Shown: positions 18,770-39,580 of the stretch, in pieces
Layout: every line of letters begins with the position of its first letter
Position numbering within the stretch: position 1 is the first letter of the stretch
Origin: Bacteroidetes bacterium GWF2_38_335
GTDB lineage: Bacteria > Bacteroidota > Bacteroidia > Bacteroidales > GWF2-38-335
Length of the DNA: 64,000 nucleotides
Direction of reading: 5' to 3'
Assembly: GCA_001769535.1 (NCBI GenBank)
Contig: MEOH01000016.1
Span: 246,776 to 310,775 of the forward strand
Program-made: the position numbers and the translations under genes
The notes under the pieces: model-generated
Database searches by the model: none
The model's input: the letters and a program-made list of their open reading frames with translations, nothing else
What the model was told of the DNA's origin: nothing

Positions 18770-19290
18770 AGCTGACGGGGAGAGTCTCCGCCGGTAGTCG
18801 GACAAGTCTCACACCACTGTACGTACGGGTCTCGTATACGGCGGTTCATTAGGTATCAGCAAGTCCGCTCTTCACACCGGAATTACCTTGGTTTTAGCTT
18901 AAGAAAAGGCTAGTATCCGCCGGTTGGCGGATTAGACCTCCAAATTAAATTTTTAACCGTCTAATGTTCAGTCCTTTCCGCCGGTTGGCGGATGAGCCCT
19001 CCGACTGTCTATTTCGGCTCGTTTCTGCAACTACTATGACCTCTGCTTAGTTACTCCCTTCGGTCGTGGTCTTAGCTTCACTACGACTCTTGGCTCATAG
19101 AAAACCGAATCTATTCCAAGACCTCCTCCCCCCTAACCTGTCCCGTACACTTGTATCGGGATAAGAGCTTCTTCCATTTGTCAATCGCTGCCGGATTGTT
19201 TTTATTATTTGGACTTTATAATGCTGTGCTTGATCACCAGTTCTTTCATGCCTCATATCCGATTTTAAACATGGATAAAAAAAAGTCATA
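18770..19290 (-). mobile_element. Relic of a mobile element, intron-like
   Basis: It begins with CGCCAGCTAAGCTGACGG, then GGGAGAGTCTCCGCC and ACAAGTCTCACACCACTGTACGTACGG..CTCGTATACGGCGGTTC. The minus strand of this is the GTGGTGTGAGA-type sequence I remember from group II intron ends. Beyond it the text (TTCTGCAACTACTATGACCT, then AGACCTCCCCCC, then ATGCCTCATATCCG) resembles a widely dispersed non-coding companion of such elements. CCGCCGGTTGGCGGAT is repeated at about 18917 and 18978. No intact reverse transcriptase is present. The 64-codon minus frame inside is probably spurious. Confidence 0.45.
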
Positions 19291-19402
19291 AGCTGGTTAC
19301 TATCTGGCGACCTATATTAGCAGAACTTAAAGAAAAAACAGATTATATAAAACTCTATAACTAAAAATAGTAAAAAAAACAACTTCATATCGAAAATTTG
19401 TA

Positions 19403-19410
19403 TATTTTTG
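19403..19410 (+). promoter_or_regulatory. Putative ilv operon promoter -7 element
   Basis: TATTTTTG fits TAnnTTTG and lies 20 bases before the first leader-peptide start codon. The expected upstream TTTG box is not clear. It is still the best placed candidate for the operon start. Confidence 0.4.
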
Positions 19411-19429
19411 TGTCATTAAAACAAGAAAA

Positions 19430-19489
19430 ATGAAAAAGTTTAACATCATTATCTCAATTATTATATTCAGCATTATTGTGAAATGTTGA
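19430..19489 (+). CDS. Isoleucine-rich leader peptide 1 of the ilv operon
   Basis: A 19-codon open frame with the translation MKKFNIIISIIIFSIIVKC and a TGA stop. Eight of 19 residues are Ile and one is Val, arranged in runs, as in the leader peptides of ribosome-mediated attenuators. It is followed immediately by a self-complementary segment that can form an antiterminator or a terminator (19491-19561). When charged tRNA-Ile is scarce, a ribosome stalled at the Ile runs would leave 19491-19501 free. I found no ribosome-binding site beyond A-rich sequence, as usual in this phylum. Confidence 0.8.
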   Translation: MKKFNIIISIIIFSIIVKC

Positions 19490-19490
19490 G

Positions 19491-19561
19491 GGAGAATGGT
19501 GTTATAAATTTAAGCAAAAATATACGGCACTGTTCTCCAAAAAGAATGGTGCTTTTTTTTT
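19491..19561 (+). terminator. Attenuator 1: antiterminator/terminator pair
   Basis: Antiterminator: GGAGAATGGTG (19491-19501) pairs with CACTGTTCTCC (19528-19538). Terminator: GCACTGTTCT (19527-19536) pairs with AGAATGGTGC (19543-19552), followed by nine T. The two structures share 19528-19536 and exclude each other. A ribosome that reaches the leader stop at 19487-19489 would mask the antiterminator arm and so favour termination. Confidence 0.8.
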
Positions 19562-19576
19562 AATGGATTATTGATT

Positions 19577-19642
19577 ATGATCAAACATCTGATAGCAAAT
19601 ATTATTATAGTCATTATTATTCTTACCTATCCCCCGGGGTGA
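19577..19642 (+). CDS. Isoleucine/leucine/valine-rich leader peptide 2 of the ilv operon
   Basis: A 21-codon open frame starting M-I-K-H-L-I-A-N and continuing with I-I-I-V-I-I-I-L before T-Y-P-P-G and a TGA stop. It has eight Ile, two Leu and one Val. It begins 16 bases after the T-run of attenuator 1 and overlaps the first arm of a second antiterminator. A P-P-G end is a known ribosome-slowing context, but that may be chance. Confidence 0.8.
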   Translation: MIKHLIANIIIVIIILTYPPG

Positions 19643-19705
19643 GCAGGACGTTTAGTGACTATAAACAAAAAAGCCTTTCTCTCCCCAGCAGAGAAGGGCT
19701 TTTTT
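19636..19705 (+). terminator. Attenuator 2: antiterminator/terminator pair
   Basis: Terminator: AGCCTTTCTCT (19672-19682) pairs with AGAGAAGGGCT (19690-19700), 11 pairs including one G-T wobble, followed by TTTTT. Antiterminator: GGGGTGAGCAGG (19636-19647) can pair imperfectly with CCTTTCTCTCCCC (19674-19686), which uses up the terminator's left arm. As in attenuator 1, the leader stop codon lies at the antiterminator's first arm. Confidence 0.75.
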
Positions 19706-19761
19706 GTTTCATACCAGAAATTAAAGATTAGAACATAAATCAACTATAAAAAGCAAATATT

Positions 19762-21570
19762 ATGAATGAATTAAAAAGCAAAAGGGTAACCGAAGGCAGA
19801 GAGAAAGCTGGAGCAAGAAGCCTGTGGCGGGCTAATGGCATGAAAGAAAGCCATTTTGGGAAACCAATTATTGCCATTGCCAATTCCTTTACCCAGTTTG
19901 TACCTGGCCATGGGCACCTGAAAGATGTTGGACAAAACGTTAAAGCTATTTTTGAAAATGCAGTTTTTTTTGCTGCTGAATTCAACACCATTGCCATAGA
20001 CGATGGCATTGCCATGAGCCACAGCGGCATGTTGTACTCCCTGCCATCCCGTGATCTTATTGCTGATAGCGTAGAATATATGTGCAATGCCCATTGTGTT
20101 GATGCACTGTTCTGTATCAGCAACTGCGATAAAATTACTCCAGGAATGCTCATGGCTGCCATGCGCCTGAATATACCAACTATTCTCGTATCAGGAGGAC
20201 CAATGGAAGCTGGTAGCGTAAATGACAAAAGCGTTGATTTAACAGACGCTATAACTGAAGGAGGAAAAGATACAACTGACCCAGTATATCTGAGAGAATT
20301 GGAACTCAATGCATGCCCCACTTGCGGATCATGTTCAGGGATGTTTACAGCCAATTCCATGAATTGCCTCACAGAAGCATTGGGTTTGGCTTTGCCCGGC
20401 AATGGTACTTTGCTGGCAACACATAAATTCAGGTGGCAACTTTTTGAGGATGCAGCAAAAGAATTGTTAAAGGTTACAAATGAATATTATTTTAGAGGCA
20501 ACCGCTCTGTTTTACCAAGAAGCATCGCTACCAGAGAAGCATTCCTTAATGCGCTGGCATTGGATATTGCTATGGGCGGCTCTTCAAATACCATATTGCA
20601 CCTCCTTGCAATAGCCAATGAGGCAAATGTTGAACTTTCGATGCAGGATGTTAATGAATTGTCAAAAAAAGTACCTGTTTTGTGCAAAGTTTCACCTAGT
20701 TCGCAATATCATATAGAAGATGTACACAAAGCCGGCGGGGTAATGGCTATCATGCATGAGTTAGATAAAAACAACCTGATAAATTCAAATGTTTCCAGGG
20801 TTGATGGAAAAACACTAAAAGAAACCATCAACGAATACAACATTATATCTGGACAAAAGCATGCGATCTATTATTCTGCACCTGGCAATTACCATAACCT
20901 TAAGTTTGCCAGTCAGGGCAATATGTTCGAAGATCTTGACAATGATAGAGTGAATGGTTGCATAAGAAGCATTGAAAATGCCTATATGAAAGATGGGGGT
21001 CTGGCGGTATTATATGGCAACATAGCTTGTAATGGTTGTATAGTAAAAACTGTAGGTGTTGATAAATCAATATTCTATTTCAAGGGTAGGGCAAAAGTAT
21101 TTCATTCGCAGGAAGATGCCTGTGATGCTATCCTTAATAACCGGATTGTTGCAGGCGATGTAGTCATAATCATTTATGAAGGCCCTGCCGGTGGGCCGGG
21201 GATGCAGGAAATGCTTTTCCCTACTTCTTATTTAAAGTCCAAAAATCTTGATAAAGTTTGTGCGCTTATCACCGATGGAAGGTTTTCCGGTGGTACATCT
21301 GGCTTATCCATAGGGCATGTTTCGCCGGAAGCAGCAGCAGGTGGTGAAATTGCTTTACTGAAGGATGGGGATTTAATAGAAATCAATATTGAACAACGGG
21401 CAATAAATGCGCTAATCAGCACAACAGAATTAAAGAGCAGAAGAGAGCAGGAAGTAAAAAAAGGAGATATTGCATTCAACCCTGAAAGGAAAAGAAACAT
21501 TCCCAAGTCGCTTCAGATATATTCAAAACACGTAAGTTCTGCCGATAAAGGTGCAATCAGGATACTATAA
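19762..21570 (+). CDS. ilvD: Dihydroxy-acid dehydratase
   Basis: A 602-residue protein, close to the usual 610, starting at ATG 19762. It catalyses the third common step of Ile and Val synthesis, dehydrating 2,3-dihydroxy acids to 2-oxo acids with an Fe-S cluster and Mg. The cysteine motifs are intact: N-C-D-K-I-T-P-G (C122) and [12 protein letters not shown] (C185, C188, C191). The C-terminal active-site region [14 protein letters not shown] is also present. It is the first structural gene after the two attenuators, and ilvB follows 12 bases later. Nothing suggests damage. Confidence 0.97.
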
Positions 21571-21582
21571 AAATGGTACATT

Positions 21583-23325
21583 ATGAAAAAAAATAAACAA
21601 AAAAATTACACTGAAAAGATAAAGGTAACAGGAGCAGAAGCAGTAGCCTTATCGCTGATCGGGGAAGGAATAAAGCATGCATTTGGTTACCCGGGCGGAG
21701 CAATAATGCCAATCCATGATAGCTTATATAAGCATAAAAATAGCATCGATCATTTGGTGGTAAGGCATGAGCAAGCTGCTGTTCATGCGGCACAAGGCTA
21801 TGCCAGATCAACAGGGAAAGTAGCTGCGGTTTTTGTCACTTCCGGACCGGGAGCAACCAATTTAATAACAGGTCTTGCTGATGCCTTTGCAGACTCTACT
21901 CCATTGGTATGCATTACCGGTCAGGTAACTGAAGCATTGCTTGGATCTGATGCCTTTCAGGAAGTAGATATAATTAGTATCTCTGCTTCTGTAACCAAAT
22001 GGAATTACCAAGTTACAAAAGCCCGTGAGGTACCAGAAATTGTTGCCAAAGCATTTTATATTGCAGGATCAGGAAGGCCAGGGCCGGTGCTTATTGATAT
22101 TACCAAAAATGCACAATTGAGCGAACTGGATTTCAATTATGTGAAATGCAAAGGTATACCAGGATATACCCCCTACCCTGTCCCGGATAAAAACCATATA
22201 GAAAAGGCCGCAGCATTAATCAACAGTGCTTTCAAACCAATGGTGCTTATAGGACAGGGAATCCTGCTAGGAAAAGCAGAAGGGGAATTACTCAAATTTA
22301 TAAACAAAACAGGTATGCCTGTTGCTTCAACATTGCTTGGTTTGTCAGCAATACCAACCACCCACCCTCAGTTTGTCGGGATGTTGGGGATGCATGGCAA
22401 TTACAGCCCAAATATTAAAACAAATGAATGCGATTTGCTCATAGCCATAGGCATGCGTTTTGACGACAGGGTAATTGGAGACCCAAAGAGGTACGGAATA
22501 AATGCAACAGTAATCCACATAGATATAGACCAGTCTGAAATCGGGAAAAACATCAGGGCTCACATTCCTTTAACAGGAAATGCAAAAGATGTTTTAAGCT
22601 GGCTTAATAAATTGGTGATTAAAAGGGACCATCAGGAATGGTTATTGGAATTTGCCAATTGCTTTGAGAAAGAATTCCGGGAGGTAATCAGCAATGATAT
22701 TAATAGCAGTAGTAGCGAAATTAATATGGGCGAAGTGATGGATACGATAAATAAGAATAGTAGCGGAAACGAAATTTTTATTATCGATGTGGGACAACAC
22801 CAGATGATTTCAGCGAGGTACCTCAAATTATCCGTTCCCAGGAGTTTTATTACTTCAGGGGGGCTTGGTACTATGGGTTTCTCCCTGCCGGCAGCTATTG
22901 GGGCAAAAACAGGCAGCAAAGATAAAAGTGTAATAGCAATAATGGGCGACGGAGGTTTCCAGATGAATATACAGGAACTGGGAACAATAGCCCAGTCAGG
23001 TTTACCAATAAAAATCATTATTCTTAACAACTCCTATTTAGGTATGGTGAGGCAATGGCAGGAAATGTTCTTTGATAAAAGGTATGCATTTACAGAAATG
23101 AAAAATCCCGATTTTGTAAAAATTGCTGAAGGTTATGGCATACAAGGCAAACGGCTGACAGAAAAAACTGATCTGGATGGCTCAATTAAAATTCTTCTTG
23201 ATTCCAAAGCCCCATTTTTACTCGAAATAGCTGTTCAGAAACTGGGCAATGTATTTCCAATGGTACCGGCGGGTGCCTCAGTAGATCAGGTTATACTGAA
23301 ACCGGCTGATAATAAAGATATTTAA
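21583..23325 (+). CDS. ilvB: Acetolactate synthase large (catalytic) subunit
   Basis: A 580-residue ThDP-dependent enzyme that condenses two pyruvates, or pyruvate and 2-oxobutyrate. The N-terminal Pyr domain shows G-Y-P-G-G-A and the catalytic glutamate in R-H-E-Q (E63), followed by S-G-P-G-A-T-N. The C-terminal PP domain has the ThDP/Mg motif G-D-G-G-F-Q-M-N (from 455) ending in N-N-S-Y-L-G-M-V-R-Q-W. It lies 12 bases after ilvD and 52 bases before ilvN, in one operon. I use ilvB for the large subunit; the exact paralogue name (ilvB, ilvG or ilvI) is arbitrary here. Confidence 0.96.
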   Translation: MKKNKQKNYTEKIKVTGAEAVALSLIGEGIKHAFGYPGGAIMPIHDSLYKHKNSIDHLVVRHEQAAVHAAQGYARSTGKVAAVFVTSGPGATNLITGLADAFADSTPLVCITGQVTEALLGSDAFQEVDIISISASVTKWNYQVTKAREVPEIVAKAFYIAGSGRPGPVLIDITKNAQLSELDFNYVKCKGIPGYTPYPVPDKNHIEKAAALINSAFKPMVLIGQGILLGKAEGELLKFINKTGMPVASTLLGLSAIPTTHPQFVGMLGMHGNYSPNIKTNECDLLIAIGMRFDDRVIGDPKRYGINATVIHIDIDQSEIGKNIRAHIPLTGNAKDVLSWLNKLVIKRDHQEWLLEFANCFEKEFREVISNDINSSSSEINMGEVMDTINKNSSGNEIFIIDVGQHQMISARYLKLSVPRSFITSGGLGTMGFSLPAAIGAKTGSKDKSVIAIMGDGGFQMNIQELGTIAQSGLPIKIIILNNSYLGMVRQWQEMFFDKRYAFTEMKNPDFVKIAEGYGIQGKRLTEKTDLDGSIKILLDSKAPFLLEIAVQKLGNVFPMVPAGASVDQVILKPADNKDI

Positions 23326-23377
23326 CAATATATGAATAAAATCACTGAATCAAATTAATCATTTAAACTCAAAAACA

Positions 23378-23764
23378 ATGGAAGAACAATTTTTAATCAA
23401 TGTCACCACCGAAAAGCAGCATGGTCTGCTAACACGAGTCCTCAACAATTTCAACAAGAAAAGGCTCAGTATCGAAAACCTGGTTGTTACAAATGCAAGG
23501 AAGCTTGGATATCAAAAATACAGCATTGTTGTAGAATCAAATCAGGAAACAATAGAAAAAGCCGTTTTACAGATTCGAAGGGTAATCGGGGTCCATGATG
23601 TTTCGTATTATCCTCAAAAAGAAGTGAATAATAAAGAAATTGTCCTCTACAGGCTCACTGCCCAGCAGCTAATCGAAAACTTCGGCTTTTATGAAAACCA
23701 GACCAGTACTAATTCTTATGCAATTAAAGACAGCCCGGTAAAGAGGCATAAAGTGTTATGCTGA
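23378..23764 (+). CDS. ilvN: Acetolactate synthase small (regulatory) subunit
   Basis: A 128-residue ACT-domain protein starting at ATG 23378. The ACT fold is visible from residue 4 (F-L-I-N-V-T-T-E-K-Q-H-G-L-L-T-R-V-L-N) to about 80 (I-G-V-H-D-V-S-Y-Y). It binds Val or Ile and confers feedback inhibition on IlvB. It is shorter than the roughly 160-190 residues common for IlvN/IlvH, so the C-terminal domain is reduced. It follows ilvB in the operon and precedes ilvC. Confidence 0.9.
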   Translation: MEEQFLINVTTEKQHGLLTRVLNNFNKKRLSIENLVVTNARKLGYQKYSIVVESNQETIEKAVLQIRRVIGVHDVSYYPQKEVNNKEIVLYRLTAQQLIENFGFYENQTSTNSYAIKDSPVKRHKVLC

Positions 23765-23847
23765 ATCTTTAATAAATTATGAATACAAATAGTATAGATA
23801 TTTTAAAAACAATGATAACAGATTATTTAAAACAAAAAATTAAAACT

Positions 23848-24885
23848 ATGACACAAATAAATTTTGGAGGCACAATTGAAACTGTAATTACAAGAGCTGA
23901 ATTCACGCTTGATCAGGCTCGTAAAGCATTACAAAACGAATCAATTGCAATCCTAGGCTATGGGGTTCAAGGTCCAGGGCAGTCATTAAATCTCAAAGAC
24001 AATGGATTTAATGTAATTATTGGCCAGCGAAAAGGAACAGACAGTTGGAAAAAGGCTCAGAAGGATGGCTGGAAAGAAGGTATAAACTTGTTTGAACCGG
24101 ATGAAGCATGCTTTAAAGCCAGTTTAATATCAAATTTATTATCTGATGCAGGCCAGATATCCAACTGGCCAGTTGTAAACAAACATCTAACCAAAGGAAA
24201 AACATTATGTTTTTCGCATGGGTTCGGGATAACATTTTCAGAAAAAACTGGTATTATCCCTCCTAAAGACATTGATGTAATCCTTGTTGCACCCAAAGGC
24301 TCAGGCACAAGTGTACGAAGGTTGTTCCTCCAAGGAAAAGGGATTAATTCCAGTTATGCAATTCATCAGGATTATTCAGGAAAGGCTAAAGAGAAAGTAC
24401 TTGCAATGGGCATTGGTATTGGGTCAGGTTATTTATTTGAAACAAGCTTTGAAAAGGAAGTATACAGTGACCTGACAGGTGAAAGGGGTGTATTAATGGG
24501 GGCACTTACCGGGATAATGGAAGCCCAATACAATGTTCTCCGCAGGAATGGGCATTCTCCATCCGAGGCATTTAATGAAACTGTTGAGGAACTAACCCAG
24601 AGCCTTATGCCATTGGTTGCAGAAAATGGCATGGATTGGATGTATGCAAATACTTCAACCACAGCGCAAAGAGGTGCTCTCGACTGGAGACATCGGTTCA
24701 GGGATGCCGTTGAACCTGTATTTAATGAATTATACAACAGCGTTATTTCGGGTAAAGAAGCAGAAATAGTAATAAAGGCGAATAGTAAAAACAATTATAA
24801 AGCACAATTGGAAGAAGAACTCAACGGGATCAGGGATTCTGAAATGTGGCAATCAGGGCTACAAGTGAGGAAACTAAGGTCATAA
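23848..24885 (+). CDS. ilvC: Ketol-acid reductoisomerase
   Basis: 345 residues from ATG 23848, which gives the family-typical start M-T-Q-I-N-F-G-G. An in-frame ATG at 23779 would add 23 unusual residues and lies 14 bases past ilvN. The Rossmann motif G-Y-G-V-Q-G-P-G-Q binds NADPH at about residues 36-44. The C-terminal knotted domain shows the metal-binding E-x-x-x-D-L-T-G-E-R-G and a conserved V-E-E-L-T-Q segment. It isomerises and reduces acetolactate or acetohydroxybutyrate. A hairpin with a short T run follows at 24898-24935. Confidence 0.96.
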   Translation: MTQINFGGTIETVITRAEFTLDQARKALQNESIAILGYGVQGPGQSLNLKDNGFNVIIGQRKGTDSWKKAQKDGWKEGINLFEPDEACFKASLISNLLSDAGQISNWPVVNKHLTKGKTLCFSHGFGITFSEKTGIIPPKDIDVILVAPKGSGTSVRRLFLQGKGINSSYAIHQDYSGKAKEKVLAMGIGIGSGYLFETSFEKEVYSDLTGERGVLMGALTGIMEAQYNVLRRNGHSPSEAFNETVEELTQSLMPLVAENGMDWMYANTSTTAQRGALDWRHRFRDAVEPVFNELYNSVISGKEAEIVIKANSKNNYKAQLEEELNGIRDSEMWQSGLQVRKLRS

Positions 24886-39081: not shown

Positions 39082-39580
39082 ATTAAATAATAGTTAAATA
39101 GTGCCTACTCTGTTAAAGCTTTTCGGCAAACGCTTTTTTACTTATTATTTTTTAATGTTGTTTTTTGTAATTTTTTTATATCACAATTTAATTAACATAT
39201 TCATTTCAATAATACAGTTAACGATATTTCATTCTAAACGGGGTGGGATAAAAGTAGATAAATAAACTAAGCTCATAAATAGGTATTGCAAGGTATTTTG
39301 AAATTAGTATAAATACTAAAACAAATAATATCTTAATATTTTATTTAACTATAATATTAAACGATTAATAATTAATTAATTATACTTTATTATCATATTA
39401 CTAAATAAATAAGTATCTTAATTACAAATTTTCATTTATCATTCAGTCTCAATGATTATTACAATAAATCAATGTATATTTTATTATGTATTATAAGTAT
39501 AATTACCCACATACAGGATGAAAAATGGAAATCAAAAAGAAAGCCGCACAACGCGACTATCTTTTTGATATTAAATACTA
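39082..39580. other. A/T-rich intergenic region
   Basis: About 500 bases, very A/T-rich, between divergent genes. No gene, terminator or repeat is recognised. The + promoter begins at its right end. Confidence 0.5.

Follow-up and report, generated by a model that had tools for sequence, protein, structure and literature searches.

Two predicted isoleucine-responsive attenuators in series before an ilv operon of Bacteroidales

We describe two Ile-rich leader peptides, each followed by its own antiterminator and terminator, that lie one after the other before ilvD, and we consider it very probable that they act as two ribosome-mediated transcription attenuators in series on a single ilv transcript. 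The window (the whole stretch of 64,000 nucleotides that was analysed) lies on contig 16 of a genome of 5.27 Mb that is assembled in 29 contigs and 96.7% complete, and both leaders are followed by the genes ilvD-ilvB-ilvN-like-ilvC (19762-24885; Table 1), of which ilvD, ilvB and ilvC pass their NCBIfam cut-offs and the ilvN-like gene scores under its own. An earlier note on this DNA had placed two leader ORFs with eight Ile codons each in tandem before ilvD, which was confirmed base for base, and the four pairings it had proposed were refolded and correspond to the helices of Table 1 or to their cores.

Table 1. Features of the tandem leader region and of the ilv genes that follow it, in window coordinates
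Feature	Position	Strand	Basis
Candidate Bacteroidota promoter -7 element TATTTTTG (TAnnTTTG)	19403..19410	+	motif match
Leader peptide 1 MKKFNIIISIIIFSIIVKC, 19 codons, 8 Ile + 1 Val	19430..19489	+	sequence; predicted ORF
Gate 1 protector (1:2) helix, 19436-19455 with 19490-19511	19436..19511	+	RNAfold
Gate 1 antiterminator (2:3), 19491-19511 with 19518-19538	19491..19538	+	RNAfold, 19 bp
Gate 1 terminator (3:4), 19526-19536 with 19543-19553, T run to 19561	19526..19561	+	folding
Leader peptide 2 MIKHLIANIIIVIIILTYPPG, 21 codons, 8 Ile + 2 Leu + 1 Val	19577..19642	+	sequence; predicted ORF
Gate 2 alternative (protector-like) helices, 19606-19616 with 19653-19663 and 19620-19628 with 19637-19646	19606..19663	+	RNAfold, leader 2 to terminator 2
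Gate 2 antiterminator, 19636-19647 with 19674-19686	19636..19686	+	folding
Gate 2 terminator, 19668-19682 with 19690-19704, T-rich tail 19700-19709	19668..19709	+	folding
ilvD, dihydroxy-acid dehydratase	19762..21570	+	NF009103 961 bits, cut-off 710
ilvB, acetolactate synthase large subunit	21583..23325	+	TIGR00118 687 bits, cut-off 538
ilvN-like acetolactate synthase small subunit, short (128 aa)	23378..23764	+	TIGR00119 47.5 bits, below cut-off 56.9
ilvC, ketol-acid reductoisomerase	23779..24885	+	TIGR00465 320 bits, cut-off 226

By folding, gate 1 carries the complete trp-like set of 1:2, 2:3 and 3:4 helices behind a leader that opens with ATG at 19430. Its antiterminator (-18.5 kcal/mol, z -4.6) was matched by 0 of 200 shuffles and equalled only once when leader end and spacer were mononucleotide-shuffled 1000 times, and 0 of 200 shuffles were as good as its 11-bp terminator (-13.3 kcal/mol, z -4.6), the tail of which has nine T (19553-19561). 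Leader 2 (ATG at 19577) starts 15 nt 3' of the gate 1 T run, without the A-rich lead-in of leader 1, and its protector-like helices are weaker in RNAfold than the clear 1:2 helix of gate 1. The gate 2 antiterminator, 10 bp with a mismatch and a bulge, reaches -16.1 kcal/mol (z -1.9; 6/200 shuffles as good; equalled in 6/1000 mononucleotide shuffles of leader end/spacer), and the 15-bp terminator reaches -18.7 kcal/mol (z -3.7; 1/200 shuffles as good). As the earlier note had claimed, the first arm of each antiterminator overlaps or abuts the leader stop codon, since it starts at 19491 in gate 1, just 3' of the TGA at 19487-19489, and at 19636 in gate 2, where the TGA lies at 19640-19642. At both gates the antiterminator and U-tract terminator helices are predicted to be mutually exclusive, and pairing between the gates is not negligible (a1:b2 -14.0 and a2:b1 -14.8, versus -19.2 and -15.6 for the cognate pairs). 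Leader 2 closes with Pro-Pro-Gly-stop at 19631-19642, which we take to be a possible slow, EF-P dependent site that would hold the ribosome over the antiterminator arm.

We propose a model in which RNA polymerase would initiate a few bases past 19410 and reach gate 1 first, on a transcript of which we infer that both leaders are translated. When charged tRNA-Ile is short, the ribosome would stall at the Ile codons of leader 1 and leave the RNA 3' of it free; antiterminator 1 would then sequester the terminator 1 5' arm, allowing polymerase to continue. When Ile is plentiful, the ribosome at the stop codon would cover the antiterminator 1 arm, and terminator 1 would form. Polymerases that pass gate 1 would face an equivalent Ile test at gate 2, so that read-through would be roughly the product of two Ile-dependent probabilities, resulting in a lower basal expression and a steeper response.

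The switching of the gates was examined with a decision-state model, in which the ribosome footprint is set to reach 12 nt downstream of the first nucleotide in the A-site codon, and transcription has yet to make the 3' arm of the terminator. With the ribosome on the ILV run, the terminator 5' arm is held by the antiterminator with a median of 0.83, compared to 0.17 at the stop, and 121 of 122 single-gate loci shift by more than 0.2 as expected, with 0 in reverse. Gate 1 of the window stands at 0.98 through Val17 and at 0.20 at the stop, and gate 2 at 0.54 on codons 8-18 and at 0.02 at the stop; since antiterminator 2 is modelled to form with the ribosome on codons 8-18 only, Ile2 and Ile6 would not count. 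At both window gates, the modelled footprint of a ribosome stalled on the codon run frees the antiterminator arm, and the stop position masks it. This expected switching, together with the recurrence of the tandem arrangement (below), supports the doubled trp/ilv-type attenuation that the earlier note had read here. Any arm close to the stop codon would give part of the decision-state result, so the sharper test is whether the place where the ILV run ends agrees with the modelled switch point. Among 127 distinct leaders the two correlate with rho 0.43 (p 5e-7, an optimistic value as the leaders are related and not independent), at a median offset of 4 nt; 99 leaders fall within -3 to +12 nt versus 74 expected, and 0 of 2000 permutations were as tight, with at most 89 leaders in that range. 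This set was drawn up after removal of the eight spurious extra calls (below), five of six Marinifilaceae loci, repeated peptides and non-ATG leaders, as well as gates with a spacer outside 12-62 nt or a maximum below 0.3. Full-length equilibrium folding gave for gate 1 a terminator probability of 0.00 on codons 6-17 and 1.00 at the stop, and for gate 2 a probability of 1.00 at every ribosome position; as its terminator dominates at equilibrium, gate 2 must act kinetically. Over 133 loci, 44 shifted by more than 0.3 in the expected way and 0 in the opposite way, equilibrium folding being uninformative for most gates.

A single transcript through both gates is suggested by the position of TAnnTTTG, which we take to be the Bacteroidota -7 promoter motif. 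Its one exact match in 19250-19770, a candidate promoter element, starts 27 nt before the leader 1 ATG and not downstream of 19705, where a transcription start would speak against the earlier note's reading; no clear -33 box was seen at this candidate promoter. Of 123 single-gate loci, 99 carry the motif between -60 and -8 relative to the leader ATG, compared to 2-9 in control windows. The layout with a motif above leader 1 and none from there to ilvD is found in the window, in 10 of the 11 first-set tandem loci and in 17/17 tandem loci of the family search, six of which are identical in their last 150 nt to first-set loci. Above leader 1, the motif start stands at 29-33 nt in L034, L094, L138 and L161, at 66 nt in L011 and, beyond the usual distance, at 81-118 nt in the Marinifilaceae tandem loci. 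The sole tandem locus with a promoter motif after leader 1 is L011, in which the entire unit is duplicated together with the motif.

The window's IlvD was searched against genome contigs, from which the best 80 loci were taken (63-68% identity), and against 295 genomes belonging to the order; 125 of these, counting the window's own, had a match. The resulting 189 upstreams were reduced to 179 unique ones by merging those identical in their last 150 nt. Of these 179 Bacteroidales-type ilvD upstreams, a strict detector left 40 without any leader-plus-terminator call and gave one or more to 139; among the 139, there was one call in 122, two in 16 and three in 1, the single calls being taken as the detector gave them. 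Thus, long-form ilvD usually has one ILV-rich attenuator before it. Beyond the order, the class-level search returned only divergent IlvD matches (31-49% identity per piece).

Both helices of the attenuator recur in these relatives, as the earlier note's reading implies. In a scan of 2080 8-bp helices over a structure-blind MAFFT alignment of 134 ilvD-proximal leaders, which were preselected for the terminator and not by antiterminator energy, the terminator came first (z 6.3, 95% paired) and the antiterminator second (z 4.4, 87% paired), the two having columns 51-56 in common. The next helices (z 3.9, little under 4.4) join the T run to the antiterminator arm. Antiterminator pairing taken over 12 bp was 0.75 versus 0.71 with rows permuted (0/200 permutations reach 0.75), and for 114 of the 134 antiterminators no more than 5 in 100 mononucleotide shuffles of spacer and leader end did as well. 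In the consensus of the 134 leaders, a primary sequence similar to TGAGAAaGGTaTGTA includes or follows the leader stop, and its last part is partly outside the helix. Among 129 single terminators, the form CCTTTCT occurs in 65 and CCATTCT in 20.

Two gates were found after inspection in 11 of the 179 loci, plus the window. Nine came from the strict detector (L011, L028, L033, L039, L045, L050, L072, L034 and L094), and L161 and L138 were added by eye or by a relaxed scan. Marinifilum fragile and Labilibaculum are among the carriers of the tandem. Among the 17 loci with at least two strict calls, eight (L008, L021, L035, L102, L126, L137, L150 and L183) were judged spurious, because the ORFs lay far upstream or because two hairpins had been given to one leader; the third strict call in L033 was also judged spurious. 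A family-wide search, seven loci of which share their last 150 nt with first-set loci, showed how the arrangement is kept. In family f117, ilvD was present in 4 of 6 genomes with two gates in 4/4, one of them (L257 = L138) with a weak gate 1. Family f106 has ilvD in 23 of 39 genomes: 14, which make up every ilvD-bearing genome in six genus codes, are clearly tandem, two (L272 = L161, and L274) have a poor U-tail, and seven are non-tandem by scan. In L272 and L274 gate 1 is clean, and a second leader with a strong hairpin is conserved, followed by CTTCTTCGC and not by a T run; this second hairpin may have ceased to be a terminator, or it may belong to a gate of a different type. G001, of the same genus as the window's genome and the only other genome of its family examined (95% complete), had no IlvD match.

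A quick IlvD tree was made from 104 rows, of which 11 are tandem (the window and L161 among them, L138 left out); on it, the tandem label needs at least six changes, and the starred branches force at least two; the window sits on a long, unplaced branch. Since L161 and the Marinifilum-type loci share the family code f106, five or six lineages are a fair reading and two a firm minimum. In L011, positions -720 to -1 of ilvD hold a near-identical duplicated attenuator unit with promoter motif, possibly a snapshot of how a tandem originates. In three lineages (the window, f117 and L034), gate 1 arms read AATG(G) and gate 2 arms A(A/G)GG, a contrast which may limit cross-pairing or reflect common descent. 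Part order and arm contrast agree between these three, and their best gate 1 nucleotide matches may reflect Ile-codon repeats instead of common descent.

The two leaders of the window rank among the most Ile-biased, with an Ile share of ILV codons of 0.89 and 0.73, versus a median of 0.30 in 117 single leaders, only two of which reach at least 0.73. The six tandem lineages have mean Ile shares of 0.38-0.81, above the singles (p 0.0005 in a post hoc comparison), and in the tandem lineages other than the window's, leaders 1 and 2 alike mix I, L and V codons, Ile making up a sizeable part. In six Marinifilaceae loci, pN/pS was 1.0 for leader 2 versus 0.46 for leader 1 (first 17 codons), hence the leader 2 peptide outside its Ile blocks appears unconserved.

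Several other explanations have to be weighed against two gates in series. Ile is favoured by A+T-rich codons, and chance Ile-rich ORFs in A+T-rich DNA beside ordinary terminators of upstream transcripts would look similar. A covariance model of leaders, R1 (51 single-gate leaders with no tandem lineage, from 55 of 73 diverse ones chosen out of 102), had the two gates as its best matches in the window (E 9.6e-5 and 1.5e-4) and, with E allowed up to 0.5, recovered the pair in 8 of 10 tandem loci, but its genome-wide best match (48.5 bits) scores above both gates, and all eight other inspected genome matches, the best included, resemble ordinary gene-end terminators; for this reason R1 was set aside as a test of membership. 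In 19665-19749 terminator 2 is near-symmetric, and the leader model also matches the minus strand there. Against chance, when 19361-19761 was dinucleotide-shuffled 2000 times, two gates never appeared, one gate appeared once, and a leader-like ORF with at least eight Ile appeared four times. A background test (at least 7 ILV in 9 codons, antiterminator at or below -10) on 1.53 Mb strand-bases from 109 loci (L005-L113) and the window placed 95 matches upstream of ilvD, at 89 loci counting the window, and 4 elsewhere; easing the criterion to at least 6 ILV gave 104 and 12. With the agreement of codon run and switch point, the position of the promoter motif and the conservation also opposed to it, a chance origin is very improbable. 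A T-box, a riboswitch or a known Rfam leader is harder still to credit: Thr_leader, whose gathering score is 55, gives sub-threshold matches with 20.6 bits (E 0.21) at gate 1 and 30.0 bits (E 0.0012) at gate 2, but the leader region holds no Rfam family at gathering score and no T-box to E 5, nor does the window hold a T-box at gathering score. Among 20 related upstream loci, two matched Rfam, with an SRP RNA (L127) and a tRNA (L116), neither of them a leader family.

More weight belongs to readings that accept the gates but not their joint Ile test. The gates could sense different inputs, gate 1 Ile and gate 2 either Ile with Leu/Val or translation stress via its Pro-Pro-Gly end. Such a second input at leader 2 had been raised in the earlier note, and the Leu and Val codons it pointed to are there, in a peptide ending in TYPPG; moreover, the tandem of Salmonella mgtCBR reads two signals (PMC3641672). 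Yet 2 Leu and 1 Val are a weak signal beside 8 Ile, which make up 8/11 of the branched-chain codons of leader 2, the modelled switch point of gate 2 falls after the Ile run, and the leaders of other tandem lineages are mixed in both gates and not in the second alone, with Ile predominant in both leaders of the window, so that we regard different inputs as rather unlikely. Somewhat less likely again, and in our view improbable, is that one gate is active and the other a leftover of unit duplication, neutral or in decay. The near-identical unit of L011, promoter motif included, the weak gate 1 of L138/L257, the gate 2 without a clean U-tract of L161/L272 and L274, and the preference of the window's gate 2 for its terminator at equilibrium would all fit such decay. 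The window's gates are nevertheless both intact, and its leaders 1 and 2 differ, from which the doubling would not be recent; two gates are kept in the 14 ilvD-bearing f106 genomes of six genus codes and in the four of f117, and Ile blocks are retained in the six loci compared.

Two attenuators acting in series on Ile supply thus remain the preferred reading. A broader proposal, to which we give an even chance, is that this is a recurrent Bacteroidales solution, in which a doubled single-amino-acid attenuator forms a multiplicative filter with an unusually steep, low-leak response to tRNA-Ile charging, and in which the codons have shifted to Ile. In the genome at hand, no leuA was seen among the four PF00682 matches (two HMG-CoA-lyase-like neighbours below the cut-off of the HMG-CoA-lyase model, and two partial ones), hence an operon serving only Ile and Val would fit. 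A simple scan of the adjoining stretches at hisG, homoserine dehydrogenase, a chorismate-binding gene and the HMGL-like pair found no leader of the matching amino acid. Elsewhere in the window, a DUF805b RNA (RF02914) lies at 39102-39136 on the minus strand (48.5 bits, over gathering score). In the usual view an attenuator is a single gate, with leak and sensitivity set by one terminator; series gating, if true, would multiply read-through, reduce leak and steepen the response. With more than 100 one-gate relatives for comparison, natural two-gate, Ile-rich leaders would make it possible to test directly how a second gate affects leak, steepness and robustness, and Bacteroidales, including gut genera such as Parabacteroides (L047, L066), would be a place to study ribosome-mediated attenuation.

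Leader-peptide attenuation is a classical mechanism, and in the enterobacterial trp, his and ilv attenuators a leader ORF with codons for the product amino acid precedes an antiterminator that competes with an intrinsic terminator. The product-codon run and this competition are common to the leaders described here, and gate 1 has the 1:2, 2:3 and 3:4 helices; in contrast, the window has two complete units in series for one amino acid, a Bacteroidota promoter motif, and antiterminator arms that start at or near the stop codon. In searches of an open-access literature collection we found no same-amino-acid attenuators in series, and the comparative paper Lopatovskaya 2010, cited in PMC4833913, may bear on this point.

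Within Bacteroidota, leader-peptide attenuation has been suggested for amino-acid operon leaders of Flavobacterium psychrophilum in a report whose main text does not contain the words ilv or isoleucine (PMC9723704), and attenuation has been hinted at for long 5' UTRs of B. thetaiotaomicron (PMC7366714). The earlier note had called a tandem version in this phylum notable; given that earlier suggestion and a single leader attenuator usual before ilvD in the order sampled, the doubling alone is unusual. The ilvBNC attenuator of Corynebacterium, according to PMC11857589 and PMC10272879, also controls a branched-chain operon through a leader, in another phylum. The closest tandem systems appear in PMC3641672, which also describes trp leader-peptide attenuation. 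There, the metE SAM/B12 tandem riboswitches likewise form two terminator-bearing gates, but sense metabolites directly, without translation. The tandem attenuators of Salmonella mgtCBR, called a 'singular example', read ATP and proline and resemble the present leaders in having two short ORFs per leader, each with its own alternative stem-loops (PMC3641672). The mgtCBR stem-loops are unlike intrinsic terminators, whereas both gates of the window combine an Ile-rich leader with a predicted U-tract terminator.
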